DNA of 64,000 nucleotides. Source: Lentisphaerota bacterium (GTDB lineage Bacteria; Verrucomicrobiota; Lentisphaeria; Victivallales; Victivallaceae). The notes beneath the pieces are model-generated. The model made no database searches. It saw nothing but the letters and a program-made list of their open reading frames with translations, and was not told where the DNA came from. The stretch spans positions 1 through 64,000 of the forward strand of contig SUVV01000003.1 in NCBI GenBank assembly GCA_015061805.1, in the 5' to 3' direction. Below, piece by piece: positions 7,218-27,842 of this stretch (position 1 is the first letter of the stretch; each line of letters starts with the position of its first letter). Both the position numbers and the translations under genes were made by a program.

Positions 7218-8168
7218 TTAACTGATTTTACTCTTGGGAGTGCCGGCATCGAGGATTTGAATACGCATTTGTTCCGCTGTCATTTTGATGTCGGAATGTT
7301 TTTCAAAAGCATTCAAAACATCCTCACAGCGGAAATATCGCGGGCGTTTGGGTTGCAGCTGAATACTTTCAGCGTTTTCCAGTTGCCGGGAAAGCCACAT
7401 CGCCAATGCCCGGACATCTTTATCGCAGGGATTATGATCAAATTCCACTGTCAGCACACGCCTTGCCGCATCGGTCAGAGTGATATAGTGTTCTTCGGCA
7501 GCACTCCGGAGTGCATTCATCCGGCGTGACTGTAACTCAAGCATAAGGTCGGCAGTACGGTTGTACTCCTGAGCATCTTGCAATTCACTTTCCAGTTCGG
7601 CAATGCGGTCTGGCCACTTCTGGGTAAGCAGATATTCGTTCCAGGAAATGAAAAATTGTTTAGCTATACTCAACGCCCAATCATTGACGCAAAGATAAAT
7701 ATAATCCCGTATCAGGGCAAAGGTATTGCGGAGTTCATCTGAACCGTACCACACTTCATCAGATACTTTTTTATACAGTTCCAACTCCCATATCGGAAGC
7801 AGATTGATATACGGATCGAGTTTTTCCATTGGTTCAGGAAAGATTTTCAGTATGACTTCCGGGAAAATGTTTTTGCAGATGTCCTGATACTTCTCTAACG
7901 GCATTGTAGTCATATCCGGAACTTCCACATCTTCCATACCGCATTGATTGCACAAAATATTGGCAATATGACACCCCATATGCACTGGCGGATATTCTCC
8001 GGCAAGATACTGATCCAGTTTCGGAGTATGTACTTTTTCCGCTTGAGCCAAAGTTTGCAGATACTTCAGCAACTCAATGGCGATGGAATCATCATATCGT
8101 GGAGAATTATATCTTCTTTGAGCAAAGATCTTCATCAAGTCTGCAGCAATGGATGTTATTTCAAGCAT
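7218..8168 (-). CDS. Unknown island protein, 316 residues
   Basis: I do not recognise a family. The protein is soluble, with no signal peptide or membrane segment, and mostly helical. A Cys pair lies in the middle (ILCNQCGMEDVEVPD), a likely coiled coil near residues 190-225 (RIAELESELQDAQEYNRTAD), and a basic C-terminus (YFRCEDVLNAFEKH) that could bind DNA. Its start overlaps the stop of the sigma-factor gene (ATGA), so the two are translationally coupled. By position it may be a replication or regulatory partner. Confidence 0.7.
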   Translation of the reverse strand: MLEITSIAADLMKIFAQRRYNSPRYDDSIAIELLKYLQTLAQAEKVHTPKLDQYLAGEYPPVHMGCHIANILCNQCGMEDVEVPDMTTMPLEKYQDICKNIFPEVILKIFPEPMEKLDPYINLLPIWELELYKKVSDEVWYGSDELRNTFALIRDYIYLCVNDWALSIAKQFFISWNEYLLTQKWPDRIAELESELQDAQEYNRTADLMLELQSRRMNALRSAAEEHYITLTDAARRVLTVEFDHNPCDKDVRALAMWLSRQLENAESIQLQPKRPRYFRCEDVLNAFEKHSDIKMTAEQMRIQILDAGTPKSKIS

Positions 8169-8860
8169 TATGACAGTTCCTCTTGGGTTCGTGGTTCAAC
8201 GATATATCGGCGGTCGGGGACGGGCAAATAACGGTGTTGCAGCTTGCCCCGCAGTTTTTCAAATATCTTCTGCCGTGTTTCAGCAAGGTAATTTTTAGAA
8301 ATCCGCAGTTTACGGGCAATTTCCCGGTCATCCGGTTCAAAGTTATCAAAAAATGAGTAATGGATAATATTCTGTTCGAGTTCGGAAAGTTCACCGATAG
8401 CACGGTGCAGAAAATCATAGTTGCGGTCTTCTGCAAGGTTATCGGTAGTGCCGACAAGTTCAATATCCACATCTTCTGCCCGATCCCAGACCACATGCTT
8501 TTTAACATTGGCAAGTATATACCGTTCAATGACTTTTTTCATATATGCGGCAAACGGTACTTTCTGTCCGACCTTGAAGCGGCTGAACTTTGTCACCATT
8601 GCCATATTACCCAAGCCGACATAGTCTTCCATTGATAAGCCATAATATCTGCGGTAGGTGTCCTTTGCCATGCCGAGGATCATTGCCAGATGAGAGCAGA
8701 TCAACGTTTCACGGGCGTTTTGATACAATACGCTCCCCTCCGGCTGTTTCAAGTCGGATAAGACGGAGTTGTATTGAGTCTCCGTAAGCTCCGGATACTT
8801 CGCCAATTCCAGAGAATAGCGGTGCAGTCCCGGATGTTCATCTGCGTTGATATTTATCAT
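8168..8860 (-). CDS. Sigma-70 family RNA polymerase sigma factor (island-encoded)
   Basis: This 230-residue protein has the two core domains of a small sigma factor. Region 2 runs from about residue 50 (LICSHLAMILGMAKDTYRRY) through DYVGLGNMAMVTKFSRF to PFAAYMKKVIERYIL. Region 4 (about 150-205) reads LSELEQNIIHYSFF, then PDDREIARKLRISKNYLAET, a helix-turn-helix for the -35 box. No region 1.1 or anti-sigma partner is seen. The ATG at 8860 has GAAAGG upstream. An in-frame ATG 9 codons earlier lies in a repeat remnant and is less likely. Seven copies of one promoter-like element lie elsewhere in the island, making this protein a candidate for reading them. It starts a minus-strand operon with the 316-residue protein. 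Confidence 0.85.
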   Translation of the reverse strand: MININADEHPGLHRYSLELAKYPELTETQYNSVLSDLKQPEGSVLYQNARETLICSHLAMILGMAKDTYRRYYGLSMEDYVGLGNMAMVTKFSRFKVGQKVPFAAYMKKVIERYILANVKKHVVWDRAEDVDIELVGTTDNLAEDRNYDFLHRAIGELSELEQNIIHYSFFDNFEPDDREIARKLRISKNYLAETRQKIFEKLRGKLQHRYLPVPDRRYIVEPRTQEELS

Positions 8861-8867
8861 AAAACCT

Positions 8868-8952
8868 TTCGATCCGCCTTCGCACAAGGCTACGGCGGGA
8901 CAAGCAAAATCGACAAATTTCCCTTAATTACTTTCGACAAAATCGACAAAAT
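8868..8952. repeat. GIY-YIG-module remnant and TCGACAAAA repeats upstream of the sigma gene
   Basis: On the minus strand, 8869-8905 reads like the module's CGCCGTAGCCTTGGCGAAGG core with one extra pair of bases. Next to it lie CGACAAA-type repeats at 8906-8918 and a double copy at 8932-8952. A shorter version of the same composite (CGATCCGGCTTC, then GACAAGCAAAATCGACA) lies at about 10,698-10,747, so the hipBA unit is bracketed by the two. Confidence 0.6.
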
Positions 8953-8995
8953 ACCCCAACATACACTTACGAAATATAATATACACCCCGCAAGT

Positions 8996-9010
8996 GGACA
9001 TTTTGTGTCC
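8996..9010. promoter_or_regulatory. Dyad GGACA-N5-TGTCC
   Basis: A perfect 5-bp inverted repeat around TTTTG lies between hipA and the sigma gene, close to an AT-rich stretch (AATATAATATA, 8973-8983) that could be a minus-strand -10. It may be an operator for the sigma-factor operon. Confidence 0.35.
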
Positions 9011-9048
9011 TATTGGATTGCGAACGGAAAAATTTTTTGAAATACTTT

Positions 9049-10287
9049 TTACTCGGCTACCTGTAAGCAGAGGTGCTTGACCTGCCAGGCAATGCTGCCA
9101 TAAACGGTTGACGGATGCACTGCATTGAGTTCCCGGTCAAGTTTATCGGCAATGGCTGGCAATTTTGCCGCCATGGAATCGAGCTCGGCAAGTACCATCT
9201 TGGGGTTGAGTCCGCACTCTTCTGCCATTGCGGAAAAATGCTTTTTTTTCAACATTCCCATACGGCTTTCGCCGCCGACACTCATAGCAAAACAGCGTGA
9301 CATCGTTTCGTAAACCATAGTACAGAGCAAATCATACGCAGGAGCAAATGACGGAACTCCATTATTATAAAGCACCGCATAATTTTTTGCGTGGGCATCA
9401 CAGTTCCCGATAAGAAAATTGAAAATCAGCAAGCGGATAAACTGCAAGCGGCTCATCGCAGATATATGCATATCACTCATACATTGCAGACAATCTTTAA
9501 CTCCCGGACCGCCGTCTTCTTCATATTTCAGATGGGGCGGCACATTGAGCAACTGACAGAAGTCCTCCTGATGCAGCCGCCGTGTAATGCCGTTTTTTGT
9601 ACTGCGGTCAAAGCGTTCCACCATATAAAAAACATCGTCATCAATGGTCAGAATATCGCATTCTGCGACCAGCATCCCCATTGCTTTTGCCAGTTTCATA
9701 CAGAAATATTCATTGTGAACACTGCTTTGAAAATTCGGGATTACGGGCTTAATGATGTGAGTTGACGGAGTTCCGTAAAGGGGCAGAGAAATCTCGCCAT
9801 TTTGTACACACGCCACCAGTTTTTCCTGCGAACCTGCTCCGGAAATACGGACGCCTTCATCGCCCACATCCAATGGGCGTTGTCCGAGGTTATCGAGGAT
9901 TTTATAGGCTTCTTCAGCTGAAAGTTTCCGGTAAACGGGATCATTTGCCGACTGTGGCGTTTCGCCCTGCGGATAAAATGAGACCGCCCCGGCACAGTCT
10001 GCACCGATTTCTTTGAGCAAGCGGAAAGTATTGCCCGGCGATACATGAAGAATCATCGCCACGGTGTTGCGGATGCGTTCATCCGGGAGCAGATTTGAAA
10101 AAAATCCTTCCACTTCAGGATCAGGGAAAACGCCTTCCTTCAGCGGAAGATTTTTTGACAGCGGATAAGCTCCCGGCGTATTCAGAAATTCCGTATCGTA
10201 GGCAAAGGACATTACGCCGTTGTCAGTAAACAGCGTGCCGATTTTATTTTCATTCAAGAATACATCCAGCTGATCGTGAAAATCCAT
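9049..10287 (-). CDS. hipA: HipA-family Ser/Thr kinase toxin
   Basis: This 412-residue protein is a full-length HipA kinase. HipA of E. coli phosphorylates GltX and induces dormancy; the target here is unknown. The N-terminal HipA_N domain (residues 5-105) contains YPLSKNLPL and FFSNLLPDE. The kinase half has the SGAGSQEK loop (149-156), the catalytic GNCDAHAKN (294-302) and the metal-binding PAYDLL (316-321), so key residues are present. The gene lies 6 bp after hipB on the same strand, the normal toxin-antitoxin layout. It probably stabilises the island. Confidence 0.93.
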   Translation of the reverse strand: MDFHDQLDVFLNENKIGTLFTDNGVMSFAYDTEFLNTPGAYPLSKNLPLKEGVFPDPEVEGFFSNLLPDERIRNTVAMILHVSPGNTFRLLKEIGADCAGAVSFYPQGETPQSANDPVYRKLSAEEAYKILDNLGQRPLDVGDEGVRISGAGSQEKLVACVQNGEISLPLYGTPSTHIIKPVIPNFQSSVHNEYFCMKLAKAMGMLVAECDILTIDDDVFYMVERFDRSTKNGITRRLHQEDFCQLLNVPPHLKYEEDGGPGVKDCLQCMSDMHISAMSRLQFIRLLIFNFLIGNCDAHAKNYAVLYNNGVPSFAPAYDLLCTMVYETMSRCFAMSVGGESRMGMLKKKHFSAMAEECGLNPKMVLAELDSMAAKLPAIADKLDRELNAVHPSTVYGSIAWQVKHLCLQVAE

Positions 10288-10293
10288 AAGTCA

Positions 10294-10521
10294 TTACTCC
10301 TCAAAGGGGCTGTAAATATGTATATCCACACCCAAAGTTTCCAGAACACTCAAAATCTTACCCAGCTGACAAGTCGCTTTCCCACTTTCCAGATCGCCAA
10401 TAAACCGTACTCCGGTATTGGACAAGCCAGCCAATTGTGCCTGAGTAACGCCCTGGGCTTTCCGCAATTCCCGAACCTTATTACCAATAGCTTCGCAGCT
10501 CAATAATGCTTCTTTGCTCAT
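10294..10521 (-). CDS. hipB: HipB-like Xre-family antitoxin
   Basis: This 75-residue HTH_3 protein has the helix-turn-helix IGNKVRELRKAQGVTQAQLA, then GLSNTGVRFIGDLESGK, as in HipB antitoxin/repressors. The ATG at 10,521 is preferred because GGAG lies 6 bases upstream; an ATG four codons earlier overlaps that site. Three matching palindromes just upstream are its likely operators, giving the usual autoregulation of hipBA. Confidence 0.88.
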   Translation of the reverse strand: MSKEALLSCEAIGNKVRELRKAQGVTQAQLAGLSNTGVRFIGDLESGKATCQLGKILSVLETLGVDIHIYSPFEE

Positions 10522-10539
10522 AAAAAACTCCATATTTTC

Positions 10540-10553
10540 TTACCGTTCGGTAA
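10540..10553. promoter_or_regulatory. hipBA operator 1
   Basis: TTACCGTTCGGTAA is a perfect palindrome with a 2-bp centre, 19 bp upstream of the hipB start. Its sequence matches two further sites 50 and 100 bp away. Confidence 0.75.
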
Positions 10554-10589
10554 CAATATAACACAAAAAAGTAAAAAATCAAGTAATTC

Positions 10590-10603
10590 TTACCGCTCGG
10601 TAA
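10590..10603. promoter_or_regulatory. hipBA operator 2
   Basis: TTACCGCTCGGTAA has the same palindromic arms and starts exactly 50 bp after operator 1. Confidence 0.75.
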
Positions 10604-10639
10604 CAAAATATTCAAAAATAAGTGTATCGCAAGCAAATC

Positions 10640-10653
10640 TTACCGTTCGGGAA
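10640..10653. promoter_or_regulatory. hipBA operator 3
   Basis: TTACCGTTCGGGAA has one arm degenerate by a base and starts exactly 50 bp after operator 2. Three sites at five-helical-turn spacing would place HipB dimers on one DNA face. Confidence 0.7.
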
Positions 10654-10792
10654 TTTTCATTCGGTGATCTATAGATATCTGAATTATTTTTTTTATCCTT
10701 CGATCCGGCTTCATTGCATTACGCCGTGACAAGCAAAATCGACAGAAATAACAATTTTATTGCGAGAAATATCCATATATTATTGCAACTCA

Positions 10793-10825
10793 ACTGGATA
10801 AGTGCAAATAGTACGCTAATATATG
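10793..10825 (+). promoter_or_regulatory. Shared upstream element A, copy 2
   Basis: ACTGGATA, six bases, then AATAGTACGCT and AATATATG lies about 45 bp before the CxxC protein gene. The two conserved blocks match positions 3340-3364 with identical spacing. Confidence 0.55.
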
Positions 10826-10868
10826 TATAGTGCAAAGCAAAGCGTTAACCTACAAGGAGATACAGAAA

Positions 10869-11099
10869 ATGGATGAATTTTTCAGTAAACGAAAATGCGA
10901 CCGATGCGACAAATCACTGGCAGACGGCTTTTCAATGAGCAGATTTGATACCAGTGCATTATGTTTTGACTGCCTTGAAGAGGAGCGGCAGCATCCGGAC
11001 TACCAGAAAGCGGTGGATGCCGAGCTTGCGGCGCTTCGCTCCGGCAACTGCAATTTTGAGGGCATCGGATGGCCCGGCAAAAACGGGAGGGTGAAATAA
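10869..11099 (+). CDS. Small CxxC zinc-ribbon-like protein
   Basis: This 76-residue protein has two CxxC pairs (CDRCDKSL and CFDCLEEE, about residues 10 and 33) that probably bind zinc, followed by a conserved-looking tail HPDYQKAVDAELAAL, then SGNCNFEGIGWP. I know similar small proteins from integrative elements of gut bacteria, without an assigned function. The ATG has AAGGAG 9 bases upstream. Its stop overlaps the next start (TAATG), so the two genes are translated together. Confidence 0.75.
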   Translation: MDEFFSKRKCDRCDKSLADGFSMSRFDTSALCFDCLEEERQHPDYQKAVDAELAALRSGNCNFEGIGWPGKNGRVK

Positions 11100-11299
11100 T
11101 GCCAGATCCCAAGACCAACATCTCCGTGCAGCTTACCGGTACTGATGGAAATATTTTTTGCGTAATCGCCAAAGTCCGTGAAGCACTCCGCCGTAATGGT
11201 CGCTCCGACCTCATTAAAGAATTCACCGATTATATCACCGGCAGCAGTTCTTATGAAGAAGCTCTCTGCCGCGTAATGGAATATGTCATCGTAAAATAA
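11099..11299 (+). CDS. Unknown small protein, 66 residues
   Basis: The start overlaps the preceding stop codon and GGGAGG lies just upstream, so translation is likely. The sequence (NISVQLTGTDGNIFCVIAKV, then REALRRNGRSDLIKEFTDYI) reads like a small beta-hairpin plus amphipathic helices. Similar short proteins accompany the CxxC protein in mobile elements, but no function is known to me. Confidence 0.7.
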   Translation: MPDPKTNISVQLTGTDGNIFCVIAKVREALRRNGRSDLIKEFTDYITGSSSYEEALCRVMEYVIVK

Positions 11300-11415
11300 C
11301 AACTTTGTTGTAATAAACGGCTTGCCTAATTGGCAATTCGGATCAATGTTATAACGCCCGCCAGAGACTCGTACAGCGCAACGAGCCGCAACACCCTCCA
11401 CGGTGCACACCCGCT

Positions 11416-11442
11416 GGCAGACCGGGCAAAGTCTGCCGTTTT
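11416..11442 (+). terminator. Terminator after the two-gene CxxC unit
   Basis: GGCAGAC/GTCTGCC (11,416-11,422 and 11,431-11,437) is followed by GTTTTC. It lies 117 bp after the last stop. The gap also has a small TTGCC/GGCAA hairpin near 11,322. Otherwise 11,300-11,594 shows no gene. Confidence 0.55.
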
Positions 11443-11594
11443 CATTTGTTCAGAATCGTCGTAAATATCTTCCAATTATTCTATAAAAATCGAATATTTT
11501 ATTTGCAATTTACAAATCCATAATATATATTTTCAGCAAGACATTATAGTTGAGAATCAGGGTTTGTGTGAAATTTTCAAAAAGGAGTGATATC

Positions 11595-11837
11595 GTGGAG
11601 ATACTTTATAAAAAATTATGGAAAGTGCTGATTGATCGGGATATGACGCAAACTGATCTGCGTAAAGCGGCAGGAATCAGTTCCTCTACACTTGCACAGA
11701 TGAATAAGAATATTCCGGTTACTACAGCCGTGGTGGAAAAAATATGCAAAGCTCTTCAATGTAAACCTGATGATATTTTGAATACCAAAGAGCTTCGTTC
11801 AATCAAGCCCCGCAAAATATCAGAGTATAAAAAGTGA
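11595..11837 (+). CDS. Cro/C1-type HTH regulator
   Basis: This 80-residue protein has a compact HTH (KLWKVLIDRDMTQTDLRKAA, then GISSSTLAQMNK) and the typical tail CKALQCKPDDIL, matching the small YozG/Cro group. The GTG at 11,595 is preferred for AAAGGAG 7 bases upstream. It is 19 bp ahead of the AddB-like gene in the same direction and is probably the operon's regulator. Confidence 0.85.
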   Translation: MEILYKKLWKVLIDRDMTQTDLRKAAGISSSTLAQMNKNIPVTTAVVEKICKALQCKPDDILNTKELRSIKPRKISEYKK

Positions 11838-11856
11838 ACAACAGCAGAGGATTTAT

Positions 11857-14340
11857 ATGAATATTACTTTTGGAATGTTTCTCGATGGAACTCAGTGGTC
11901 GGAAAAATCCGCTTCACTGGGCGAAATCATCTGTGGTCCCGGCGCATTTCTGGCACTGTTGGAACAGCGTACCGGACTCTCCGGTGTTGAAGTTTCTCTT
12001 CCTGAGCGCATCAATGAGTACCGGGCAAAAATTGAAGCAGTCAATCCCCTGTGGTGCCGGGCATCTTTTCAGCTTGACAGTTGGTCTACCGCCAAACAAA
12101 TGCTCGCTTCGCGTGATGAACTTTATCTCAACGGCTGGAATGGTGCTGACGGCAACAGTAATCGCCTGAAAGCTCTTGCCCGGATTGAAAAATCTGCTCC
12201 ACCGCTTTCCAGTGGTATACCTGACCGGATGAAACGGCTGTTGGCAGAGCTGGAAAAATTCACCTTTTCTGATACGCTCTGTATCCGGGATAACTTTGAA
12301 CTGCTGCCTTTCTATTGGCAAAAAATAATCAATCAGCTTGGAAAATGCGGCATGAAAATCATCGTTCTGCCGCCGGAAGAGAATTCTTCTCCTGAAATCA
12401 TTAAAGTTTCCGGAAATAACGAATATGTTCTTGCCACCGAACTCTGCCGTTATCTGAGTGCGGGAGATAACCAACGTGTTGCACTTATCTGCGAGGGAAA
12501 ATCGGAAGTGCTTGATGGTATTCTGCGCCGTTTCGGCAAAGGTATGATCGGTAATACTCAATCCTCCCGCTGGCGGGAATCGCTGCAACTTCTGCCGTTA
12601 TGGCTGGAAACATTGTGGAAGCCATTCAATCCGCTGCGTTTTCTGGAACTTCTGACATTGCCGCACTCCATTATTTCCGCTAATGTGGCAAGAGCGTTGA
12701 TCAAGGCTTTACAAAAAGCACCCGGCATCAATGGCATCGAATGGTCGCAGGCGTTGGAAAATATCAAAAACGATATTCAGAAAAACACGAATGGATTTTA
12801 CAAAAATACCAAAGCAGAAATTGAAAAGATTGCTGCTCTGCAAAAATTTATTGAACAGGAGTGTTTCACCATTGACCCCAATACCGGTGCACTGGAAAAA
12901 ACTTTGATTGAACGTTGTGAATATCTGGAAAAACACCTCGCGCCACAAATTGAAAAATTCCCGGAACTTGCGATCCCAGTCACCCATGCCGGGATATTGA
13001 AAAAAATTGCTGCAAATAAAGGTATCATTAACAAAGTGGCTTTGGCAAGAATGCTGGATTCGATAGTGAGTACCGGAACTGCTCCCGGTACTGACAAGCG
13101 ACAGGTTACTGATTTTGCCGTATTTTCCCATCCGGGAATGATTTCTGGCAAATTTGATACGGTTTTGTGGTGGAATTGTATTGACCGGGGACATTCAAAG
13201 GGAACAGCATGGTCCGCGGATGAAATCGACGTGATGCCCGGTTTCAACCGTTCCAAAGAGCGGAAACTGGAAAATAATGCGTGGCAGATGGCAAAAAACG
13301 CAGCACAAAAAGAGTTTATTGCTTTTATTCCGCAGCAGATAGAGGGTGAAACCGTTTTTCATCATGCCCTTCTTGATGATCCAGCAATCGTCAGCATAGA
13401 ACCGGTTCCATCAGAGAAACTTGTCACCTCAAAAGGCATCTGGCAATTGGGAAGCCGGAAAAAGAAATTGACTCCAGGAAAACAGACCTCAAATTCAACT
13501 GTACCTTTGGATTGTGGCGCTGAGATCAAAGTTGCCCGGCGTCTCTCTTATTCCCAGTTGAATACCTTCCTTTCCTGTCCGCGGCAGTGGCTGTTTCAGG
13601 ATTATCTGGCATTGCAGAAGCCTGCAGCGATGACCCTGCCGACCGGAGCACCAATGTTGGGAACTCTGGCTCACAAAGTTGTTGAAACGCTTTATTGCGG
13701 AACTGAAAAAATTTCTGCAGATGAGGCAAAACGTGATGCAGGAAGAATCTTCGATAAGCTCATTCCCGCAATGGCGGCGGAACTTCTGCTGGGCGGTCGC
13801 AATATAGAACGGGATCGTTTCCGGAAAACTCTTGTTGATTCAATTTATTCTCTGGTCAGCGAAATCAACCGCAGAAATTTGCGGGTAAAAGGGTGCGAAA
13901 CCAAGCTTTCCGGCAACTTTGAAGGAATTGATTTTATCGGTTTCAGCGACATCCTTTTGGAAGATAAAAACGGCAAAGCATTTGTGATCGACATGAAGTG
14001 GTCAACTTCCGGTTCTTATGAAAAAAATCTGAAAGAGAACAAAGCCTTGCAGCTGGCAACCTACTCCTGGCTGCTCTCCCCGGAGAATATGGATGTTGAG
14101 TGTGCCTATTACCTTTTCCCGAAGCAAAAATTCATACATCAACCCGATGCCGATTGGCAGACTCTGTGGCAGAATGCCCGGCAATGCTGGGCGGAACGGA
14201 TGGCTGCCCTGCGTTCAAATAAGTTGGAAAAAGGTATTTCAGATGAGAAAAAATTGCAAGATTCGCCATTACCTTTGAAGTTGACTGCCGGATGTGATTA
14301 TTGTGACTTTGCGGCACTTTGCGATATTATTGGGGAGTAA
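11857..14340 (+). CDS. AddB-like PD-(D/E)XK nuclease with Fe-S cluster motif
   Basis: This 827-residue protein resembles AddB/RexB. The C-terminal nuclease has SYSQLNTFLSCPRQW (about 561-575), GTLAHKVVE (about 601), the metal motif GFSDILLED ... VIDMKWS (about 695-715), and QLATYSWLL (about 731). A CxxC...C cluster (CDYCDFAALC, about 812-821) plus the Cys in SCPRQW makes four Cys for a 4Fe-4S clasp, as in AddB. The N-terminal half is helicase-like in size, but I see no Walker A motif. AddB also uses its N-terminal half mainly for DNA recognition. Its stop is 4 bp before the AddA-like gene, so a heterodimer is expected. Confidence 0.85.
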   Translation: MNITFGMFLDGTQWSEKSASLGEIICGPGAFLALLEQRTGLSGVEVSLPERINEYRAKIEAVNPLWCRASFQLDSWSTAKQMLASRDELYLNGWNGADGNSNRLKALARIEKSAPPLSSGIPDRMKRLLAELEKFTFSDTLCIRDNFELLPFYWQKIINQLGKCGMKIIVLPPEENSSPEIIKVSGNNEYVLATELCRYLSAGDNQRVALICEGKSEVLDGILRRFGKGMIGNTQSSRWRESLQLLPLWLETLWKPFNPLRFLELLTLPHSIISANVARALIKALQKAPGINGIEWSQALENIKNDIQKNTNGFYKNTKAEIEKIAALQKFIEQECFTIDPNTGALEKTLIERCEYLEKHLAPQIEKFPELAIPVTHAGILKKIAANKGIINKVALARMLDSIVSTGTAPGTDKRQVTDFAVFSHPGMISGKFDTVLWWNCIDRGHSKGTAWSADEIDVMPGFNRSKERKLENNAWQMAKNAAQKEFIAFIPQQIEGETVFHHALLDDPAIVSIEPVPSEKLVTSKGIWQLGSRKKKLTPGKQTSNSTVPLDCGAEIKVARRLSYSQLNTFLSCPRQWLFQDYLALQKPAAMTLPTGAPMLGTLAHKVVETLYCGTEKISADEAKRDAGRIFDKLIPAMAAELLLGGRNIERDRFRKTLVDSIYSLVSEINRRNLRVKGCETKLSGNFEGIDFIGFSDILLEDKNGKAFVIDMKWSTSGSYEKNLKENKALQLATYSWLLSPENMDVECAYYLFPKQKFIHQPDADWQTLWQNARQCWAERMAALRSNKLEKGISDEKKLQDSPLPLKLTAGCDYCDFAALCDIIGE

Positions 14341-20854: not shown

Positions 20855-20880
20855 AAGTTTTTAAAAAACGTCATATAGGA
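20855..20880 (+). promoter_or_regulatory. GTCATATA promoter-like element, copy 1
   Basis: A T-tract, an A-tract, CGTCATATA and GG lies 39 bp upstream of the 51-residue protein gene. This is the first of seven copies of the element in the island. Confidence 0.6.
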
Positions 20881-20918: not shown

Positions 20919-21074
20919 ATGAAGCATTGCTGCGAGCAGATGACCTATATGGTCGAAGAGGAAAACAGTATCGTTTTTGTATCGAGAACCAAAGAGTACG
21001 GCGTTCCGATCCTGGACGGCGGCAGCTCTTTTCTGATTATAAAATATTGCCCCTGGTGCGGTAAAGAACTTTGA
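20919..21074 (+). CDS. Small Cys-rich protein (DUF6980-like)
   Basis: This 51-residue protein begins MKHCCEQM and ends IIKYCPWCGKEL, with EYGVPILDGGSSF between. The CC and CxxC pairs probably bind one zinc. I recognise the pattern from a widespread uncharacterised family, probably DUF6980. GAAAGGA precedes the ATG. It starts a two-gene unit with the next gene. Confidence 0.75.
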   Translation: MKHCCEQMTYMVEEENSIVFVSRTKEYGVPILDGGSSFLIIKYCPWCGKEL

Positions 21075-21087
21075 GGCGGAATTCTAT

Positions 21088-21573
21088 ATGGAAACTTGTG
21101 AACTTGAAAAAATCCTGAATGATATCAGTGATCTCAAATATACCACTGAATGCAGCAATACAATATTTTCAGGATGTGAAGTGGCAATGCATTATAATAG
21201 AGATGGTAGATGGACGGTTTGGTTGACAGACAGTATTGATGCTGTCGATGGTTTTTATCATGCCGCAGGAGCATACCGGTATGTCGATGGAGAACTTGGA
21301 GAGGATGTTTTGGAAGTATCCGAATGTGATTGCGACAAGTTTTGCGGCGACAATGCTTTCAGCACTTGCGGTAAAACTTTGGAAGAGGCCGTAAATAAAC
21401 TTGCTGCCAAAGTGGCAATTCTGCGGCAAAATCCTGATTATATTCTTGTTTTTCCCGGGGAAGAGATAATGCCACAGGAATTTTTGAGCGAAGAAGAGTA
21501 TTTGGATTTAAAAAATGAGGTAGAAAAAGATTATGAGCTGTGGCGCTCAATGAAAGAGCAGAAAAAATCATAA
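21088..21573 (+). CDS. Unknown acidic protein, 161 residues
   Basis: No family is recognised. The soluble, acidic protein contains a WTVWLTDSIDAVDGFY segment, a Cys-rich patch (VSECDCDKFCG), and a helix typical of small immunity or phage-associated proteins (TLEEAVNKLAAKVAILRQNP). It follows the small Cys protein by 13 bp and is probably co-transcribed. Confidence 0.7.
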   Translation: METCELEKILNDISDLKYTTECSNTIFSGCEVAMHYNRDGRWTVWLTDSIDAVDGFYHAAGAYRYVDGELGEDVLEVSECDCDKFCGDNAFSTCGKTLEEAVNKLAAKVAILRQNPDYILVFPGEEIMPQEFLSEEEYLDLKNEVEKDYELWRSMKEQKKS

Positions 21574-21589
21574 TTTTGAAAAATCCCAT

Positions 21590-21617
21590 TGTTTTTTAAA
21601 AATGTCATATATGAACG
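21590..21617 (+). promoter_or_regulatory. GTCATATA promoter-like element, copy 2
   Basis: TTGTTTTTTAAAAAT then GTCATATAT and GAACG lies 43 bp upstream of the repeat-protein gene. The copy at 22,981 also shares the following CAAAACAGTTT. Confidence 0.65.
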
Positions 21618-21660
21618 GCAAAACAGTTTAATCCCGGAATCGCCAAAGGAGAACATTTAC

Positions 21661-22971
21661 ATGAATGTGTTTGATAAATTAAAAAACGAAGATTGGATAG
21701 ATATTTTAAGAGAACAGCCGCAGTTAGCTGACAAGTGCGACAAGTGGAGAAAATTTAATGGCGAAGATTGGAGTTTCCTTTTGCGAGAACAGCCACAGTT
21801 CGCCGACAAGTGCGACTGGAGCAAATTGGATGGAAATGCTTGGAAATGGCTTTTACAAGAACAACCGCAGTTCGCCGACAAGTGCAATAAGTGGGGTGAA
21901 TTTGATGCCGGAGATTGGAGCTTTCTTTTGCGAGAACAACCTCAATTAGCGGACAAATGCAACAAGTGGAGGAAATTTGATAGCGTAGATTGGAGCCACC
22001 TCTTGTGTGAACAGCCGCAGTTCGCCGATAAATGCGATGAATGGGATAAATTTGATGCCGTAGATTGGCGCGAACTCTTGCGCGAACAGCCACAGTTCGC
22101 CGATAAATGCGATGAATGGGATGAATTTGATGCCAAAGATTGGAGCAGGCTTTTGCACAAACAGCCGCAGTTCGCTGATAAGTGCAACAAGTGGAGAAAA
22201 TTTGATAATAAAACTTGGAACGGGCTTTTACAAGAACAGCCGCAGTTCGCTGATAAGTGCAACAAGTGGAGAAAATTTAAAACCGAAGATTGGATATATC
22301 TTTTAATAGAACAGCCACAGTTCGCCGATAAGTGCGACAAATGGGATGATTTTGATGGCTATGATTGGAGCAGGCTTTTGCGAGAACAACCGCAGTTCGC
22401 CGATAAGTGCGACAAGTGGAGAAAATTTGATATCTACAGGTGGCACAAGCTTTTACAAGAACAACCACAGTTCGCCGATAAGTGCGATAAGTGGGACGAG
22501 TTTAGCGGTTTTTTTTGGCGTGAAATCTTGCGAGAACAGCCGCAGTTCGCCGATAAATGCGATGAATGGGATGAATTTGATGCCGTAAATTGGCGCGAAC
22601 TCTTGCGCGAACAGCCGCAGTTCGCCGATAAATGCGACAAGTGGGGTGAATTTGATGCCGAAGATTGGAGCCGTCTCTTGTACGAACAGCCGCAGTTCGC
22701 CGATAAATGCGACAAGTGGGGTGAATTTGATGCCGAAGATTGGAGCTTTCTTTTGCGAGAACAACCTCAATTCGCGGACAAGTGCAATAAGTGGAGAAAA
22801 TTTAATGGCGGAGATTGGAGCTGTCTCTTGTACAAACAGCCGCAGTTCGCCGATAAATGTGACTGGGAAAAATTGTATCGCAGGGCTTTGAGAGAACTTT
22901 TGCAAAAACACCCTGAATTTGCTGAAACTGTTACTCATATTTCAGTATCAGATGGGAGTAATGCCAAATAA
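21661..22971 (+). CDS. Tandem-repeat protein (W/LL/QPQFADKC repeats)
   Basis: This 436-residue protein is almost entirely 16 repeats of about 25 residues plus a degenerate seventeenth. The unit is roughly DKWxxFDxxDW, then xxLLREQPQFADKC. A few units are 24 residues (CDWSKL variants). Constant Trp, Leu-Leu, Pro, Phe and Cys suggest a helical solenoid of alpha-alpha hairpins used for binding. No enzyme motif, signal peptide or membrane segment is present. The repeats are 72 or 75 bp at DNA level, so copy number can change by recombination. Variable positions cluster before and after the DW. A diverged relative of the repeat closes the protein at 27,328. AAAGGAG precedes the ATG. Confidence 0.85.
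   Translation: MNVFDKLKNEDWIDILREQPQLADKCDKWRKFNGEDWSFLLREQPQFADKCDWSKLDGNAWKWLLQEQPQFADKCNKWGEFDAGDWSFLLREQPQLADKCNKWRKFDSVDWSHLLCEQPQFADKCDEWDKFDAVDWRELLREQPQFADKCDEWDEFDAKDWSRLLHKQPQFADKCNKWRKFDNKTWNGLLQEQPQFADKCNKWRKFKTEDWIYLLIEQPQFADKCDKWDDFDGYDWSRLLREQPQFADKCDKWRKFDIYRWHKLLQEQPQFADKCDKWDEFSGFFWREILREQPQFADKCDEWDEFDAVNWRELLREQPQFADKCDKWGEFDAEDWSRLLYEQPQFADKCDKWGEFDAEDWSFLLREQPQFADKCNKWRKFNGGDWSCLLYKQPQFADKCDWEKLYRRALRELLQKHPEFAETVTHISVSDGSNAK
21670..22905 (+). repeat. 72/75-bp coding tandem repeat array
   Basis: About 16 copies lie within one gene. Blocks such as CAGCCGCAGTTCGCCGATAA recur nearly unchanged while the segments between vary, so identity is concentrated in part of each unit. 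Confidence 0.85.
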
Positions 22972-22980
22972 AAAATCCCC

Positions 22981-23010
22981 TTGTTTTTTAAAGAACGTCA
23001 TATATAAACG
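22981..23010 (+). promoter_or_regulatory. GTCATATA promoter-like element, copy 3
   Basis: TTGTTTTTTAAAG, AAC, GTCATATAT and AAACG lies 57 bp upstream of the 86-residue ankyrin-like gene, right after the repeat-protein stop. Confidence 0.65.
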
Positions 23011-23066
23011 ACAAAACAGTTTGTCAAGTCAAACTGGGGTAATTTAATAGAAATGGGGAGTGCAAA

Positions 23067-23327
23067 ATGAATGTGCTGGACTTTTTCAGTGCGGTTTCAG
23101 AGGGAGATTTGGAAAAGGTAAAAGAGTTTTATGCCAATGGCGGAAAGGTGGATTTGAATCATAATCTTACCTATGCTTGCGGTGCAACCTGGATCATCCC
23201 TCTGCCTCTGGTTACGGCATTTCAAAAAGGATATGATGACATCGCAAAATTTCTTATTGAAAAAGGTGCCGATCCGGATGCTTATTGCAAAAAGAATAAT
23301 ATTACCCCAAGAGAAGTGAAACGATAA
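23067..23327 (+). CDS. Short ankyrin-repeat protein
   Basis: This 86-residue protein has two ankyrin-like helix pairs: FFSAVSEGDLEKVKEFYANG, then PLVTAFQKGYDDIAKFLIEK followed by GADPDAY. Ankyrin repeats bind proteins; no catalytic part is present. The ATG has GGGGAG upstream. It has its own GTCATATA element and is followed by a terminator, so it forms a single-gene unit. Confidence 0.8.
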   Translation: MNVLDFFSAVSEGDLEKVKEFYANGGKVDLNHNLTYACGATWIIPLPLVTAFQKGYDDIAKFLIEKGADPDAYCKKNNITPREVKR

Positions 23328-23390
23328 ACAGCAAAACTGTTTTTCACGGAAGAGTGAATTTTAAACTGAATTGATCTTCAGTATCAGCGG

Positions 23391-23427
23391 CTGCCGCCCG
23401 ACGTTAAGTTGAGCGGCAGTTTTTTTG
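23391..23427 (+). terminator. Terminator after the short ankyrin gene
   Basis: CTGCCGC/GCGGCAG (23,391-23,397 and 23,413-23,419) is followed by eight T. It separates this unit from the next. Confidence 0.85.
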
Positions 23428-23461
23428 TCTTTTTTCTGCCATCTATAAAAATTTTTTGGGT

Positions 23462-23489
23462 GTTTTGAAAAAAACGTCATATACAGGCG
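23462..23489 (+). promoter_or_regulatory. GTCATATA promoter-like element, copy 4
   Basis: GTTTTGAAAAAAA, CGTCATATA and CAGGCG. It is the first of two elements in tandem before the second ankyrin gene. Confidence 0.6.
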
Positions 23490-23530
23490 TATTATCTTTT
23501 TGAGATCAGCAGAAGAAAAAATTTTTTGCA

Positions 23531-23559
23531 TAATTTTTTTAAATCGTCATATATGAATG
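23531..23559 (+). promoter_or_regulatory. GTCATATA promoter-like element, copy 5
   Basis: TTTTTTTAAAT, CGTCATATAT and GAATG, 36 bp before the ankyrin gene start and about 69 bp downstream of copy 4. Confidence 0.6.
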
Positions 23560-23594
23560 TGAACAGGAAAACACAAACCAAAAGGAGATTTCTT

Positions 23595-24281
23595 ATGGAT
23601 GACTGGACGATTGCAAATACGTGGGGAGTTCTTGACCGCTTTGCCGAAGAAAAAGCCAATGCTGAATTTATTTCTGCATGTAAAAACGGCGATCTCAGCA
23701 AAATCGAATTTGAATTGCAGCATGGCCGCGATCCCAATCTCGCGATTTTGAAAAAATCACCGCTCTGGTATGCTAAAAACAATCCAGAGGCAATCAAATT
23801 GCTGTTGGAATATGGCGCCGCGCCGGAATTGTATGAATTTTACCATTTTTGCCGGAGATTTTTTAAAGACGAACTTCTGGAACTTTGCAAACTGTATCTG
23901 ATCAATGCCGACGGTCGGGATATTTTCAAACGGCTGCAGAACGGAAAACGTGAACTGGAAAAACGGTACGACGTATGCCGCCAAGCCGGTTATAAAACCA
24001 TTATGGAATATAACCGGAATGCTGATTTGCAGTTCAAAAAATATTTTATGGTCTTTCCTTTTATTCACATCTTGCACGATGAAGAACTGAAACTTCTTGT
24101 CGATATTGCCAACAAAGGTCGGGCGGCAGATATCCACGTTGCCATCGGCTCGGTGGATGACGAATTACCTGTTGAGCTGGCAATGTCCTGTCAGGAAAAA
24201 ATTTCTGCCCCCCTCGGAGCAAATACCCTGCAGGATTGGTATTGTTCCAGTTACTCTGTAAACTCTTTTTCCCGGATGTAA
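23595..24281 (+). CDS. Ankyrin-like protein, 228 residues
   Basis: The N-terminal 100 residues hold ankyrin-like helices (EFISACKNGDLSKIEFELQH, then GRDPNLAILKKSPLWYAKNN and PEAIKLLLEYGAAPEL). The rest is not recognised: RDIFKRLQNGKRELEKRYDV, then LHDEELKLLVDIANKGRAAD. AAAGGAG precedes the ATG. Two GTCATATA elements lie upstream. A binding role is likely; the partner is unknown. Confidence 0.75.
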   Translation: MDDWTIANTWGVLDRFAEEKANAEFISACKNGDLSKIEFELQHGRDPNLAILKKSPLWYAKNNPEAIKLLLEYGAAPELYEFYHFCRRFFKDELLELCKLYLINADGRDIFKRLQNGKRELEKRYDVCRQAGYKTIMEYNRNADLQFKKYFMVFPFIHILHDEELKLLVDIANKGRAADIHVAIGSVDDELPVELAMSCQEKISAPLGANTLQDWYCSSYSVNSFSRM

Positions 24282-24294
24282 AAATTTTTTGAAT

Positions 24295-24322
24295 GATTTT
24301 TAAAAATTGTCATATAGAGGCG
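24295..24322 (+). promoter_or_regulatory. GTCATATA promoter-like element, copy 6
   Basis: GATTTTTAAAAAT, TGTCATATA and GAGGCG, followed by TAAACTCAACAC and a strong AGGAGG. The downstream leader is nearly repeated before the gene at 27,867. Confidence 0.65.
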
Positions 24323-24357
24323 TAAACTCAACACAGCAATTAAAACAGGAGGTTATT

Positions 24358-24960
24358 ATGAACAAAACAGTCAAGTCTCAACTTGTCCCGATGGTCGTTG
24401 AAAGTACCGGACACGGCGAACGCGGTTACGATATTTATTCGCGTTTGCTCAAAGATCGCATCATTCTGCTGGGAACTCCCATTGATGATGATGTCGCCAA
24501 TCTGGTTATTGCCCAGCTGCTGTTTCTGCAGGCGGAAGACCCGAAAAAGGATATTGATCTTTATATCAATTCCCCCGGCGGCTCCGTCACTGCCGGACTT
24601 GCCATTTACGACACGATCCAGACCGTTTCCTGCAATGTCAAAACTTTCTGCCTCGGTCAATGCGCCAGTATGGGGGCTGTTCTGCTCGCTGCCGGAACTC
24701 CGGGCAAACGTTTCGCTCTGCCTCACTCCCGCATCATGATCCACCAGCCCTGGGGCGGAGCGGAAGGAACGGCCGCTGACATTGAAATCCAGAGCAGAGA
24801 AATCCTGCGTCTGCGCTCCATGCTCAATAATATCCTTGCCCGGCATACCGGAAAAAATCTCAAAACCATTGAAAAAGATACCAACCGTGACTTTTTCATG
24901 TCCGCTTCCGAAGCCGCTGACTACGGCATCGTCGATTTAGTTATCAGCAACAATAAATAA
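24358..24960 (+). CDS. clpP: ClpP-family serine protease (island copy)
   Basis: This 200-residue protein has the full ClpP fold and triad: Ser in CASMGA (about 102), His in HQPWGG (about 128) and Asp in KDTNRDFF (about 175). The start [19 protein letters not shown] and the [12 protein letters not shown] oxyanion region are canonical. ClpP rings degrade proteins delivered by AAA+ unfoldases. No N-terminal propeptide like that of E. coli is obvious. It is followed 15 bp later by a tandem AAA+ ATPase, which is not ClpX- or ClpA-like in order but could supply substrates. The ATG follows AGGAGG. An extra ClpP on a mobile island is unusual. Confidence 0.92.
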
Positions 24961-24975
24961 TAAGGAGATAAAACG

Positions 24976-27309
24976 ATGAATACTTCAAATGACAATAAGA
25001 AAAACACCAATACCGCAGCAGCCGAATATGAATGTCTTTTCGGCAAAGGTGTCGATCTCTTCAAAAACTACTACGCTGTCCTCGGCATCCGCAATATTCT
25101 CAAAACGATCGGTGTCCGTACCAGCCATGATTCTGATTGGTTCAAGGCGGTTGCAGAATTCATTACCAGTTCAGAAGTTTCTGAACTTTACGACAGCATC
25201 ATCTCTCCCCGGAAACGCCGGGCGATATGCACCAAAACAGCTTACAGAAACCCTCCGGAACTCACCGAAGACGATCCTGACGATGTCATTTCCTATTTGA
25301 GCAAAAATGTTCTGTACCGCAAAAAAATGTGGCAGAAAATGCTTGCGATCTATGAAGTGCGTCTGGAAGAATACAAAACCGCTCTTGAAGCTGAAGACCG
25401 GAAAAAATCTGCCGTTGAAATCCGTTTCAAGGAGATGGAGGAACTTTTCTCCCTCTCTGAAAAAGAAGTCCATGCCCTGATGGCGGTCTTCCTCTCTGAA
25501 ACCAACAACGCAGAATACGGCGATTTCGACATCAACCGTTTCCGTTCCGGCGAAAAGGTCAGCGCACTGGCAAAAATCATCGGCATTCCGGAAGTTGAAG
25601 CCGCCGCCTTGCTCGACGACAACAACAATATCCGTAAATACGGTCTGGTGGATAATGACCTTGATCTTGACCGGACGTTTCTCGCCTATCTTTCCGGAAT
25701 TTGTTCCAAACCGCTGGCAGAACGTTTCTGGGTGAAATATGAGGGCGAAGTCCTCCCCTGGAACTTTCACGGCAAACTTGCGGAAAAACACGGCGAACTC
25801 CTCAAAAAGATGATTTCTGCCAAAGATGACAACGGACTTTCGGTGCTTCTCTACGGTGTGCCCGGTTCCGGAAAAACCAGTTTCGCCGCCAGCCTTGCCG
25901 CCGATATGGGCAAAGAACTCTACTTCATCGCCCAGAACGATGATGATTCCCGCCGCATGAGTTACAGTCCGGCATTCCGTTACGCCGCCCTCGCAGTTGC
26001 CCAGAAACAGCTTGATCCGGCAAAAAGTATTCTCGTTATCGACGAATGTGACAAACTTGTGGAAAACACCGGTCTCGGCGGCAGTTTCATCTCCTGGCTC
26101 ATGGGCGGAGATATGGCAGGTGGTCGGGACGGCGAAAGCAAAGGACAGCTCAACAGTGTTATCGACAACAACCGCCACACGATCCTGTGGATCTGCAACT
26201 CCAACCGCAGTGCCATCGATCCCAGTTCGCGCCGCCGCTTTGATTACAATATCTTCTTTGACGAACTCTCCACCACTGCCCGCACCTACATCTGGCAGAA
26301 TGCCTTGAAGTTCAACCACTGCGAAAACAAACTGGATGATTTTTTCATTCGGCGCATCAGCAGCCGTTATCCGGTGAATCCCGGCGGCATTGCTCTGGCG
26401 GTAAAAAATACGGCGATGCTGTTCCGCAAAGATCCGCAGATAAATTTTGAACATGAAATCATGACCTTTCTCAAGGCACATTGTTCGCTTCTTGGAATTC
26501 AGGAGTCTCCCGATGAGCTGCTGGAACCCGCCCGGGATTACTCGCTGGATGGCTTGAATATCCGCAGCGGTATCAAACTGCCCCGCTTGATCGAGGTGTG
26601 CCGGAACTTTTTGAAAAATGCTTCCGACATCCGGCTCAACCGGGATCAGCCCCGGATGAATCTGCTCCTTTTCGGTGTTCCCGGTTCCGGTAAAACTGAA
26701 TTTGTCAAATATCTTGCCAAACAGCTCGGTAAAAAATTGCTCATCAAAAATGCCGGTGATTTGCTGAATATGTATGTCGGCGGCACTGAACAGCGCATCG
26801 CCGCCGCCTTTGCCGAAGCGGAACTCAATGGAGATATCCTCTTTATCGACGAAGGCGATTCATTGCTGGGTGCGCGGGACAGCGCCTTGCGCAGCTGGGA
26901 GGTAAGTCAGGTAAATACGCTTCTTTCTGAAATGGAACGCTTCAAAGGTATTTTCATCGTTGGAACCAATCTGATCCAGAAACTCGATCAGGCGGCATTG
27001 CGGAGATTCAGTTTCCGGCTGCACTTTGACTATCTGACCAATGACGGCAAGGAGATTTTTTTCAATACCTATTTTACCAAACCGATGGGGCTGCCGGAAC
27101 TCAATGAGGAGGAAAAGAAAAAACTCGGTTCCATTGATTCCATGACCCCCAGTGATTTCCGCAATGTGAGACAGCAGTTCTTCTACCTTGCCGATGAGAA
27201 TTTGAGCAATTCCGAAATCATCGAAGCACTGGCAACCGAAATTACCAGCAAAACTTCCGGAGCCAACTATAAAGGGCTGGGCAGTGTGGTCAACAAACTT
27301 GGATTTTAA
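24976..27309 (+). CDS. Tandem AAA+ ATPase next to ClpP
   Basis: This 777-residue protein has an unassigned helical N-terminal half (1-280, likely coiled coil near 130-160) and two AAA+ modules. The first has P-loop YGVPGSGKTSF (about 293) and Walker B ILVIDECDK (about 352). The second has FGVPGSGKTEF (about 566), Walker B ILFIDEGDSL (about 621) and a sensor/Arg region ending LRRFSFRLHFDYL. I see no clear IGF-type ClpP docking tripeptide and no ClpX zinc domain. Both modules keep Walker residues. The gene lies between clpP and the 146-residue gene in one operon, AAGGAG before the ATG. A dedicated unfoldase role is inferred from position only. Confidence 0.85.
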   Translation: MNTSNDNKKNTNTAAAEYECLFGKGVDLFKNYYAVLGIRNILKTIGVRTSHDSDWFKAVAEFITSSEVSELYDSIISPRKRRAICTKTAYRNPPELTEDDPDDVISYLSKNVLYRKKMWQKMLAIYEVRLEEYKTALEAEDRKKSAVEIRFKEMEELFSLSEKEVHALMAVFLSETNNAEYGDFDINRFRSGEKVSALAKIIGIPEVEAAALLDDNNNIRKYGLVDNDLDLDRTFLAYLSGICSKPLAERFWVKYEGEVLPWNFHGKLAEKHGELLKKMISAKDDNGLSVLLYGVPGSGKTSFAASLAADMGKELYFIAQNDDDSRRMSYSPAFRYAALAVAQKQLDPAKSILVIDECDKLVENTGLGGSFISWLMGGDMAGGRDGESKGQLNSVIDNNRHTILWICNSNRSAIDPSSRRRFDYNIFFDELSTTARTYIWQNALKFNHCENKLDDFFIRRISSRYPVNPGGIALAVKNTAMLFRKDPQINFEHEIMTFLKAHCSLLGIQESPDELLEPARDYSLDGLNIRSGIKLPRLIEVCRNFLKNASDIRLNRDQPRMNLLLFGVPGSGKTEFVKYLAKQLGKKLLIKNAGDLLNMYVGGTEQRIAAAFAEAELNGDILFIDEGDSLLGARDSALRSWEVSQVNTLLSEMERFKGIFIVGTNLIQKLDQAALRRFSFRLHFDYLTNDGKEIFFNTYFTKPMGLPELNEEEKKKLGSIDSMTPSDFRNVRQQFFYLADENLSNSEIIEALATEITSKTSGANYKGLGSVVNKLGF

Positions 27310-27327
27310 AATAACATGGAGGAAAAT

Positions 27328-27768
27328 ATGACTGAAATCAAAAAAATCATCGCCGGCATCACCAACATCAAAGATTATGACATTTCCAATGATTTTGATT
27401 GTGATGAAATTGAAGCATTGCTTGAGGAAGGTATCATCAAGGGAACAGATCTCGAAAGTTGGCGGGCCTCGGATTTGATTATTGACAGAGTTATCGGTTA
27501 TGACGCTTATCCTTTTGAAAAGTTTTCACCTGATGAGCAGCTCCGTCAGCTGCTTTACTGCGCCATTGAGCCGTCAGCGTTCCTGAAAAAAGCTGATCTG
27601 GATTTCTACGATGCCGATGAATGGCTCTTTCTGCTGCAGCTTATTCCTCACCTTTCAGACCGGGCGCCCTGGGAAATGCTTAAAGCGGAAGGTTCGGAAG
27701 AAAACTGGAAAGAGTTGCTTGAAAAGCATCCGGAATTTGAAAAATATGCTCCGGCAAAGGGAAATTGA
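27328..27768 (+). CDS. Small protein with a diverged LL/HPEF repeat
   Basis: This 146-residue acidic protein is not a known family. Its C-terminus, DADEWLFLLQLIPHLSD, then NWKELLEKHPEFEKYAP, matches the LLQKHPEFAETV unit that ends the 16-repeat protein at 21,661. The two therefore belong to the same solenoid family. The ATG at 27,328 has GGAGG 5 bases upstream; an earlier in-frame ATG overlaps that site. It lies 18 bp after the AAA+ stop. Confidence 0.75.
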   Translation: MTEIKKIIAGITNIKDYDISNDFDCDEIEALLEEGIIKGTDLESWRASDLIIDRVIGYDAYPFEKFSPDEQLRQLLYCAIEPSAFLKKADLDFYDADEWLFLLQLIPHLSDRAPWEMLKAEGSEENWKELLEKHPEFEKYAPAKGN

Positions 27769-27805
27769 TGCCAAAAAAACTTTACCCGTAAAAATTTTTG
27801 GGCAA

Positions 27806-27842
27806 GTTTTTTAAAAAAGTCATTTATTGGCGTAAACTCAAC
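27806..27842 (+). promoter_or_regulatory. GTCATATA promoter-like element, copy 7 (variant)
   Basis: GTTTTTTAAAAAA, then GTCATTTATT and GGCG, with one changed base in the core. The following TAAACTCAACACGCCAAT and AGGAGG copy the clpP leader almost exactly. Confidence 0.6.

Follow-up and report, generated by a model that had tools for sequence, protein, structure and literature searches.

Cargo genes of a genomic island in a Lentisphaerota bacterium (Victivallaceae) are preceded by seven copies of a 20-base-pair (bp) element, TTTTTnnAAAnnGTCATATA, which we interpret as a portable, promoter-like cassette. The island lies in contig SUVV01000003.1 of assembly GCA_015061805.1, and the 64,000 nucleotides (nt) of that contig analysed here are called the window (contig C16 of the host genome, G000; 2.29 Mb in 34 contigs, 91% complete). 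We assign a probability of roughly 0.56 to the reading that the cassette moves with the cargo and is read by a form of the host's own RNA polymerase, and that a sigma-70 family factor encoded in the same island is separate and serves the island core. The original prediction, made from the letters of the window, had been that this sigma factor reads the sites and makes the cargo a self-contained regulon. Both a promoter-like set in the cargo and a sigma gene in the same island were indeed found; the proposed link between them was not supported, since the element occurs in two genomes without a detectable sigma relative (G080 and G128) and relatives of the sigma gene occur without comparable sites in the stretches available, one weak match in G102 excepted. 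Comparisons were made over 198 genomes including the host, a class search having returned 197 Lentisphaeria genomes.

The 20-bp element in the window

The seven intergenic sites share the element as one ungapped form, at the following positions, with distances measured from the octamer to the start codon in nt and proteins given in amino acids (aa):

20858..20877, plus strand: site 1 (TTTTTAAAAAACGTCATATA), 41 nt before the Cys-rich 51-aa gene
21592..21611, plus strand: site 2, 49 nt before the repeat-protein gene
22985..23004, plus strand: site 3, one mismatch, 62 nt before the first ankyrin gene
23464..23483, plus strand: site 4, first of a tandem pair, 111 nt before ankyrin-like gene 2
23534..23553, plus strand: site 5, the other tandem copy, 41 nt before ankyrin-like gene 2
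24297..24316, plus strand: site 6, 41 nt before clpP
27807..27826, plus strand: site 7, octamer GTCATTTA, 40 nt before the 196-aa gene

These are the places originally proposed, and the T tract, A tract and core attributed to all of them hold, with the exact octamer GTCATATA, in six; the seventh, at 27,806, carries GTCATTTA, one base different. Site 4 has the exact octamer and two mismatches, both in the T tract. Six of the seven distances to the start codon fall within 40-62 nt, in agreement with the 35-60 bp first estimated for all but the leading site of the tandem pair. Since the gaps between the previous stop codon and the site range from 13 to 206 nt, the placement is promoter-like. All seven sites are intergenic, in a stretch of which 9.8% is intergenic. 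The octamer GTCATATA occurs seven times in the window versus 0.71 expected, a count reached in 0 of 100 shuffles; one of these copies, at 33012, lacks the tracts and stands outside the set. When tracts were required (score of at least 8, octamer with at most one mismatch), seven sites were recovered, and simulated sequences gave at most one: the mean was 0.05 (maximum 1) over 300 block-wise first-order Markov sequences, and 0.01 (maximum 1) over 500 third-order Markov copies of 20.2-28.0 kb.

To these seven sites we added three from G080 and one from G128, and the 11 octamer-anchored sites aligned free of gaps. T is found at -12 to -10 in 11/11, A at -5, -4 and -3 in 10/11 each, and G at +13 in 9/11, and GTCAT[A/T]TA is present in all 11. 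No second box is conserved at the 16-18 bp spacing that a sigma factor's pair of boxes would have: none of the columns from -20 to -13 exceeds 0.8 bits, and columns -23 and -22, which reach 1.05, are those where sites 4-7 share a copied left flank. The statement that the sites are not of the TTGNNN form has to be corrected, because TTG stands 18-19 nt before the TATA position (16-17 nt before CAT[A/T]TA) in four of the seven, the same four that carry the copied left flank. Sites 6 and 7 also have a leader in common. Given these copied flanks and leaders, the seven sites are partly mutual copies and not seven independent inventions, which fits duplication of a cassette.

We favour a model in which TTTTTnnAAAnnGTCATATA would be the cassette core: TATAnn, following GTCA, would be the -10 box, the T and A tracts would occupy the spacer, and a conserved -35 box would be lacking. 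The cassette would have been copied before several cargo genes and would move between genomes with those genes. Its reader would most likely be the RNA polymerase form of each host, carrying either the housekeeping sigma or a host factor, and the cargo would keep its expression signal whichever element carries it. It is also conceivable, if rather unlikely, that the 20-bp form is an operator bound by a cargo- or host-encoded DNA-binding protein, the promoter box being only part of the form. Its rigid register of about two helical turns, the common G at +13, and its linkage to the cargo in place of a spread over host promoters are what such an operator would show. The site is not palindromic, and among the proteins of the window cluster Pfam names only AAA, ligase and helicase domains, several having no match.

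Two further features were noted around the octamer. The leader after site 7 (TTGGCGTAAACTCAACACGCCAA, window 27827-27849) forms a short inverted repeat without mismatch; the similar leader of site 6 has it in imperfect form. The lone tract-less GTCATATA (33012-33019) lies 19 nt before a GIY-YIG gene and just after a repeat, CCCGCCGTAGCCTTGGCGAAGGCGG, a variant of which also stands directly before the sigma gene.

Cargo genes and the distribution of the element

The genes behind the sites and those that continue the cluster are as follows:

20919..21074, plus strand: Cys-rich gene, 51 aa
21661..22971, plus strand: repeat protein, 436 aa, DUF285-like repeats; matches in 47/198 genomes including the host
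23067..23327, plus strand: ankyrin-like gene 1, 86 aa
23595..24281, plus strand: ankyrin-like gene 2, 228 aa; matched weakly, under the Pfam cut-offs
24358..24960, plus strand: ClpP protease, 200 aa
24976..27309, plus strand: double-AAA ATPase, 777 aa; its G080 relative, 51.5% identical, follows an element
27867..28457, plus strand: 196-aa protein, no family match; relatives in G080 (63%), G128 (47%) and G154 (29%)
28469..29158, plus strand: 229-aa protein; matched strongly in G080 (where a stop falls near the end) and G128, weakly or in part in G152 and G154
29162..30523, plus strand: ATP-dependent DNA ligase-like protein, 453 aa
30526..31647, plus strand: 373-aa protein, kept within the cluster
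31637..32698, plus strand: superfamily 2 (SF2; ResIII/DEAD) helicase, 353 aa

Within the host genome, the site set is confined to this cargo region, apart from lone partial matches on contigs C14 and C26. Searching for TTTTTTAAANNNNGTCATATA with up to three mismatches returned 25 matches (39 for the reversed control); all five with at most two mismatches are sites of the set, and two of the 20 with three mismatches are the remaining sites. The pattern TTTTN{3,10}GTCATATA occurs at seven places, six of them set sites and the other at C14:78027. A refined form, TTTTTNNAAANNGTCATATA, was likewise found seven times with at most one mismatch, six times at set sites and once at C26:11697 with the octamer TTCATATA; site 4 is two mismatches away from this form. 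The element is thus rare on the host chromosome, and not the common motif that the original prediction had named as fatal to itself.

The same rarity holds across the class. Exact TTTTTNNAAANNGTCATATA was found, among 197 Lentisphaeria genomes, only in G000 (four copies, all in the window), G080 (two) and G062 (one). With one mismatch allowed, 67/197 genomes have matches, mostly scattered, as are those of the reversed control; clusters are seen in G000, G080 (C21 2538-3829) and G062 (C4 688-1908). The loose form TTTTTTAAANNNNGTCATATA with at most two mismatches matched 124/198 genomes, with the reversed control of the same order, and was discarded as evidence. A related build, TTTTNAAAN{1,4}GTGATATA, occurs at nine places in 5/18 relatives' genomes, scattered on chromosomes (0 for the reversed control), which favours a host polymerase form as the reader. 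On the chromosome of G102, a one-mismatch match to the element (C27:75070) is continued by TATAAT in a region that has no long open frames and, together with the scattered GTGATATA builds, fits an ordinary host promoter type.

Where the cargo recurs, the element tends to recur with it. G080 carries the AAA, 196-aa, 229-aa, ligase, 373-aa and helicase genes collinear with the window at 51-76% identity, and its three elements precede the AAA gene by 57 nt, a repeat-like gene by 44 nt and a MoxR-like AAA/DUF2201 pair by 48 nt. G128 has one element, 52 nt before its 196-aa gene. In G062, 153- and 161-aa genes about 93% identical to those of the window share a 3.2-kb contig with four element-like matches. 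Of the window's cargo, G126 has GmrSD at 82% identity, the 153-aa gene at 90% and a portion of the Cys-rich gene; a different contig of this genome bears an element, lying 105 nt upstream of a 275-aa repeat/150-aa-like gene. The cargo itself is uncommon: relatives of the 196-aa protein were found in three of 197 other genomes searched (G080, G128 and G154), and the 229-aa protein matched only G000 and G080 in a phylum sample of 387 genomes. Viral contigs yielded no relatives of the sigma, 196-aa or 229-aa proteins, plasmids none of the 229-aa protein, and phages none of the ligase. PADLOC matches were confined to the AAA, helicase and GmrSD families.

That the element tracks the repeat-protein family as such was considered and rejected, the family being present in 47/198 genomes and the element at few of its loci. 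Among 29 repeat-protein loci fetched outside the host, only that of G128 has the element; the repeat-like gene of G080, which is outside those 29, has it as well.

On two contigs the cargo is scrambled: at L213 (G062:C4) and L214 (G126:C137), genes up to 93% identical to those of the window lie beside truncated GmrSD, leucine-rich repeat (LRR)-like and Cys-rich remnants, as if the cargo region were a recombination hot spot. Could the element then mark the junctions at which cargo cassettes are exchanged? We consider this most improbable. In G062 one site has its T tract a few bases at most from the opening codons of the repeat gene, another site stands just before the truncated GmrSD remnant, and the left flanks fall into copied types, all of which would suit a junction. 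The distance is near-fixed to the next start codon and not to the previous stop, and a deletion in G062, in which site 1 is lost together with the greater part of the Cys-rich gene, does not end at an element as judged by eye.

The sigma gene and the island core

The left part of the window begins with tRNA-Ala (2-78), after which come the minus-strand genes for a large serine recombinase, DUF2924, DUF3987, the PriCT-2 primase, the 316-aa protein, sigma and HipA/HipB; on the plus strand, PDDEXK, UvrD, GmrSD and small genes follow from 11.9 kb, and then the element-bearing cargo. The features of this part are:

978..6844, minus strand: core genes overall
978-2681, minus strand: serine recombinase, core
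2686-3111, minus strand: DUF2924, core
3387..3914, plus strand: HARE-HTH protein, 175 aa; kept in the islands of G012 (87%), G102 (50%) and G039 (37%)
4225-5763, minus strand: DUF3987, core
5782..5799, plus strand: a pair of TTTTGTCGA repeats immediately upstream of DUF3987, which is a minus-strand gene
5819-6844, minus strand: PriCT-2 primase, core
7218..8168, minus strand: 316-aa partner; its start overlaps the sigma stop, and it adjoins sigma in five other loci
8168..8860, minus strand: sigma-70 family protein, 230 aa, ATG at 8860
8934..8951, minus strand: a direct repeat of TTTTGTCGA (two copies), between sigma start and palindrome; another TTTGTCGA starts at 8917
8996..9010, minus strand: palindrome GGACACAAAATGTCC, upstream of sigma, beside TATATTAT

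The small sigma-70 gene announced for the island is there. Its product scores 51.7 bits against TIGR02937 (cut-off 42.9) over residues 49-207, and its sequence matches in the PDB include RpoH, FliA and others. Pfam region 2 (19.3 bits, cut-off 24) and region 4 (14.8 bits, cut-off 24.1) both fall below threshold. The predicted model of the 230 residues is all helical, with a mean predicted local distance difference test score (pLDDT) of 73.1, a predicted template modelling score (pTM) of 0.53 and confident blocks at 1-121 and about 146-210. Judged by its profile matches, the protein is a true member of the sigma-70 family.

The sigma gene goes with the island core. Matches at E <= 1e-3 were obtained in 22/198 genomes and are close in six, namely the host itself and five genomes with relatives 41-92% identical: G126 (92%), G102, G039, G104 with two copies, and G012 with a truncated one. 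The remaining 16 genomes, including G003, were not considered further, their matches being distant (24-34% identity, E from 2e-8 to 9e-4). G102 and G039 keep the full core order of recombinase, DUF2924, DUF3987 and PriCT-2, and G104 keeps part of it. The core of G012 has decayed, with no matches to the 316-aa gene, DUF3987 or PriCT-2, and the 3.1-kb contig of G126 holds HipA, sigma and the 316-aa gene only. None of the sigma-bearing stretches (L061-L066 and L012; 3.1 to 35.6 kb) has a site with a tract score of at least 7, and no direct repeat in the other sigma islands is element-like among the families shown. In the window itself, no element precedes the sigma or core genes. The core of G102 contains one GTCATATA without tracts. 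Conversely, G080 (97% complete), G128 (88%) and G062 (84%) have the element and no sigma match at E <= 1e-3. Judged from these genomes, sites and sigma gene do not appear to occur together.

Several observations weigh against the reading of a host-read cassette travelling with the cargo and independent of the island sigma. The contigs of G154 (5.9 kb, 196-aa relative at 29%) and G152 (14.6 kb, 229-aa relative) have no element, so that the cargo linkage is not universal, and some matches in G062 and G126, of the TTTTTTTGAAA form, fall inside small open frames or remnants. G128 and G062 are incomplete, which makes the absence of sigma there weaker evidence than its absence in G080. Most sigma stretches reach little into the cargo, contigs other than that of G102 being short or ending near the cargo side; the lack of sites is therefore strongest for G102. 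The core of that very genome has a one-mismatch match, TTTTTAGAAACAGTCATACA (octamer GTCATACA), 65 nt before the HARE-HTH gene; since by eye it covers the opening codons of a small minus-strand gene, and since the window has no such match at that place, we take it as a chance match. Sigma and element are found together in G126 as well as in G000, and their overlap over the 198 genomes gives a naive P = 0.007. G126 has pieces 82-98% identical to the window island, and we accordingly counted the two genomes as one lineage, which brings the value to 0.10. Finally, the form is nearly absent elsewhere in the host genome, which is odd for a plain housekeeping promoter and leaves room for an operator or a special factor.

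Some of these points are what one would expect if the island sigma read the GTCATATA sites and switched on the cargo as its private regulon, a scenario that we regard as unlikely. It would be consistent with a genuine sigma-70 family protein, with a site set that, lone partial matches aside, keeps to the cargo in the host, with G126, where a 92% identical sigma accompanies an element before a cargo-type gene, and with the weak match in the G102 core. It fits poorly with the cargo clusters of G080 and G128, which have the element and no sigma relative found, with the lack of any comparable site near the sigmas of G039, G104 and G012 (and only a weak one in G102), with the missing second box, and with the absence of the element before the window's own sigma and core genes. 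We thus retain the portable cassette read by each host's polymerase, and propose that the island sigma, part of an integration/replication core and preceded by an operator-like palindrome, would most likely control the core genes.

The region upstream of sigma is kept in the window and five other loci, and it is unlike the element. The palindrome has the form GGACA-N5-TGTCC in the window, G126, G012 and G039 and CTGACA-N5-TGTCAG in the two G104 loci, beside TATATTAT; it was not found at the G102 sigma locus. One to three TTTGTCGA repeats lie near the sigma start in the window, G126, G012 and G104 loci. The identical 15-mer palindrome is also found in the host at C32:19514, 47 nt upstream of the gene of a 324-aa WYL-domain regulator (L234), and a one-base variant precedes the WYL counterpart in G012 (L221, G012:C3:53757). 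That sigma shares its palindrome with a chromosomal WYL gene suggests that a host regulator may act on it, and that the sigma gene may respond to this regulator and serve the island core. A general SOS box is an unlikely explanation of the palindrome, which occurs at three places in the host genome versus two for a control. On the other side of the C32 palindrome, a promoter-like TATATTAT leads to short frames that begin with MWK and close with an LPF-type motif similar to beta-clamp-binding peptides.

A relay that combines both regulators can also be envisaged, and we hold it to be very unlikely: a host WYL-type regulator, perhaps damage-sensing, would control sigma through the GGACAnnnnnTGTCC palindrome, the sigma of G000 and G126 would read the cargo sites, and another factor would do so elsewhere. 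If it were true, host stress would switch on the passenger genes and core replication together.

Other features of the core bear on its own regulation. The HARE-HTH domain is also known from an RNA polymerase delta subunit, so that the core may hold two transcription-related proteins, sigma and HARE-HTH; a 121-aa minus-strand frame was not retained as a core gene, being probably the shadow of the HARE-HTH gene. The 316-aa protein, a candidate anti-sigma or initiator, was not found in the G012 contig, and elsewhere it is 25-32% identical where sigma is 43-51% identical, the close G126 copy excepted. The TTTTGTCGA pairs before DUF3987 and before sigma are in opposite orientation and are possibly iterons or sigma-related sites; TTTTGTCGA is little above chance in the window (5 versus 1.56, reached in 3/100 shuffles). 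Upstream of hipB, two perfect TTACCGnnCGGTAA sites (10540 and 10590) and an imperfect one (10640) are spaced by 50 bp (window 10540-10655). Similar copies are present in L064 (G012:C57), and the sites look like hipB operators. L064 is a decayed island core, in which sigma is cut to about 97 aa, and the recombinase, DUF2924 and HipAB are retained at about 92-100% identity.

Relation to known systems

In the TcdR/TetR group, the sigma factor is tied to its targets. The island resembles that arrangement in having a small sigma-70 family gene beside genes that it might control, and differs from it in that the sites accompany cargo in genomes that yielded no match to this sigma, and relatives of this sigma occur without comparable sites. 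In clostridia, the members of this group are reported as locus-encoded sigma factors that activate neighbouring cargo (PMC4885068, PMC7892561). With the sigma-A promoters of the same class (TTGnnn-16-TATATT, by eye), the element shares a TATA box before the start and a T/A-rich spacer, and the scattered chromosomal GTGATATA sites are of the same build; it differs by the GTCA before TATA, by the lack of a conserved -35 box and by its linkage to cargo. The order of recombinase, DUF2924, DUF3987 and PriCT-2, seen also in G102 and G039, is that of integrative elements combining a primase/helicase with a serine recombinase, to which this island adds a sigma-70 family gene, a HARE-HTH gene and the 316-aa partner. 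WYL-domain regulators include BrxR and CapW of defence loci and PafBC and SiwR of DNA-damage responses. The likeness here is a host chromosomal WYL gene beside the same 15-bp palindrome, a putative operator, as the sigma gene; the difference is that this gene lies outside the window, on another contig (C32). Titles and abstract openings returned by a literature search contained no report of this motif or arrangement. A shared promoter cassette is ordinary in kind, and this one is new in detail.

The distribution of the element suggests that a promoter-like signal, portable and duplicated, belongs to the passenger genes themselves, accompanies them across genera of a class that has been little studied, and is separate from the mobile element that carries them. 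A sigma gene and a repeated promoter motif, easily merged when both lie on one island, are also told apart here. The sigma gene, set in a replication core and next to a host-type palindrome, becomes a candidate switch for excision or replication of the element.

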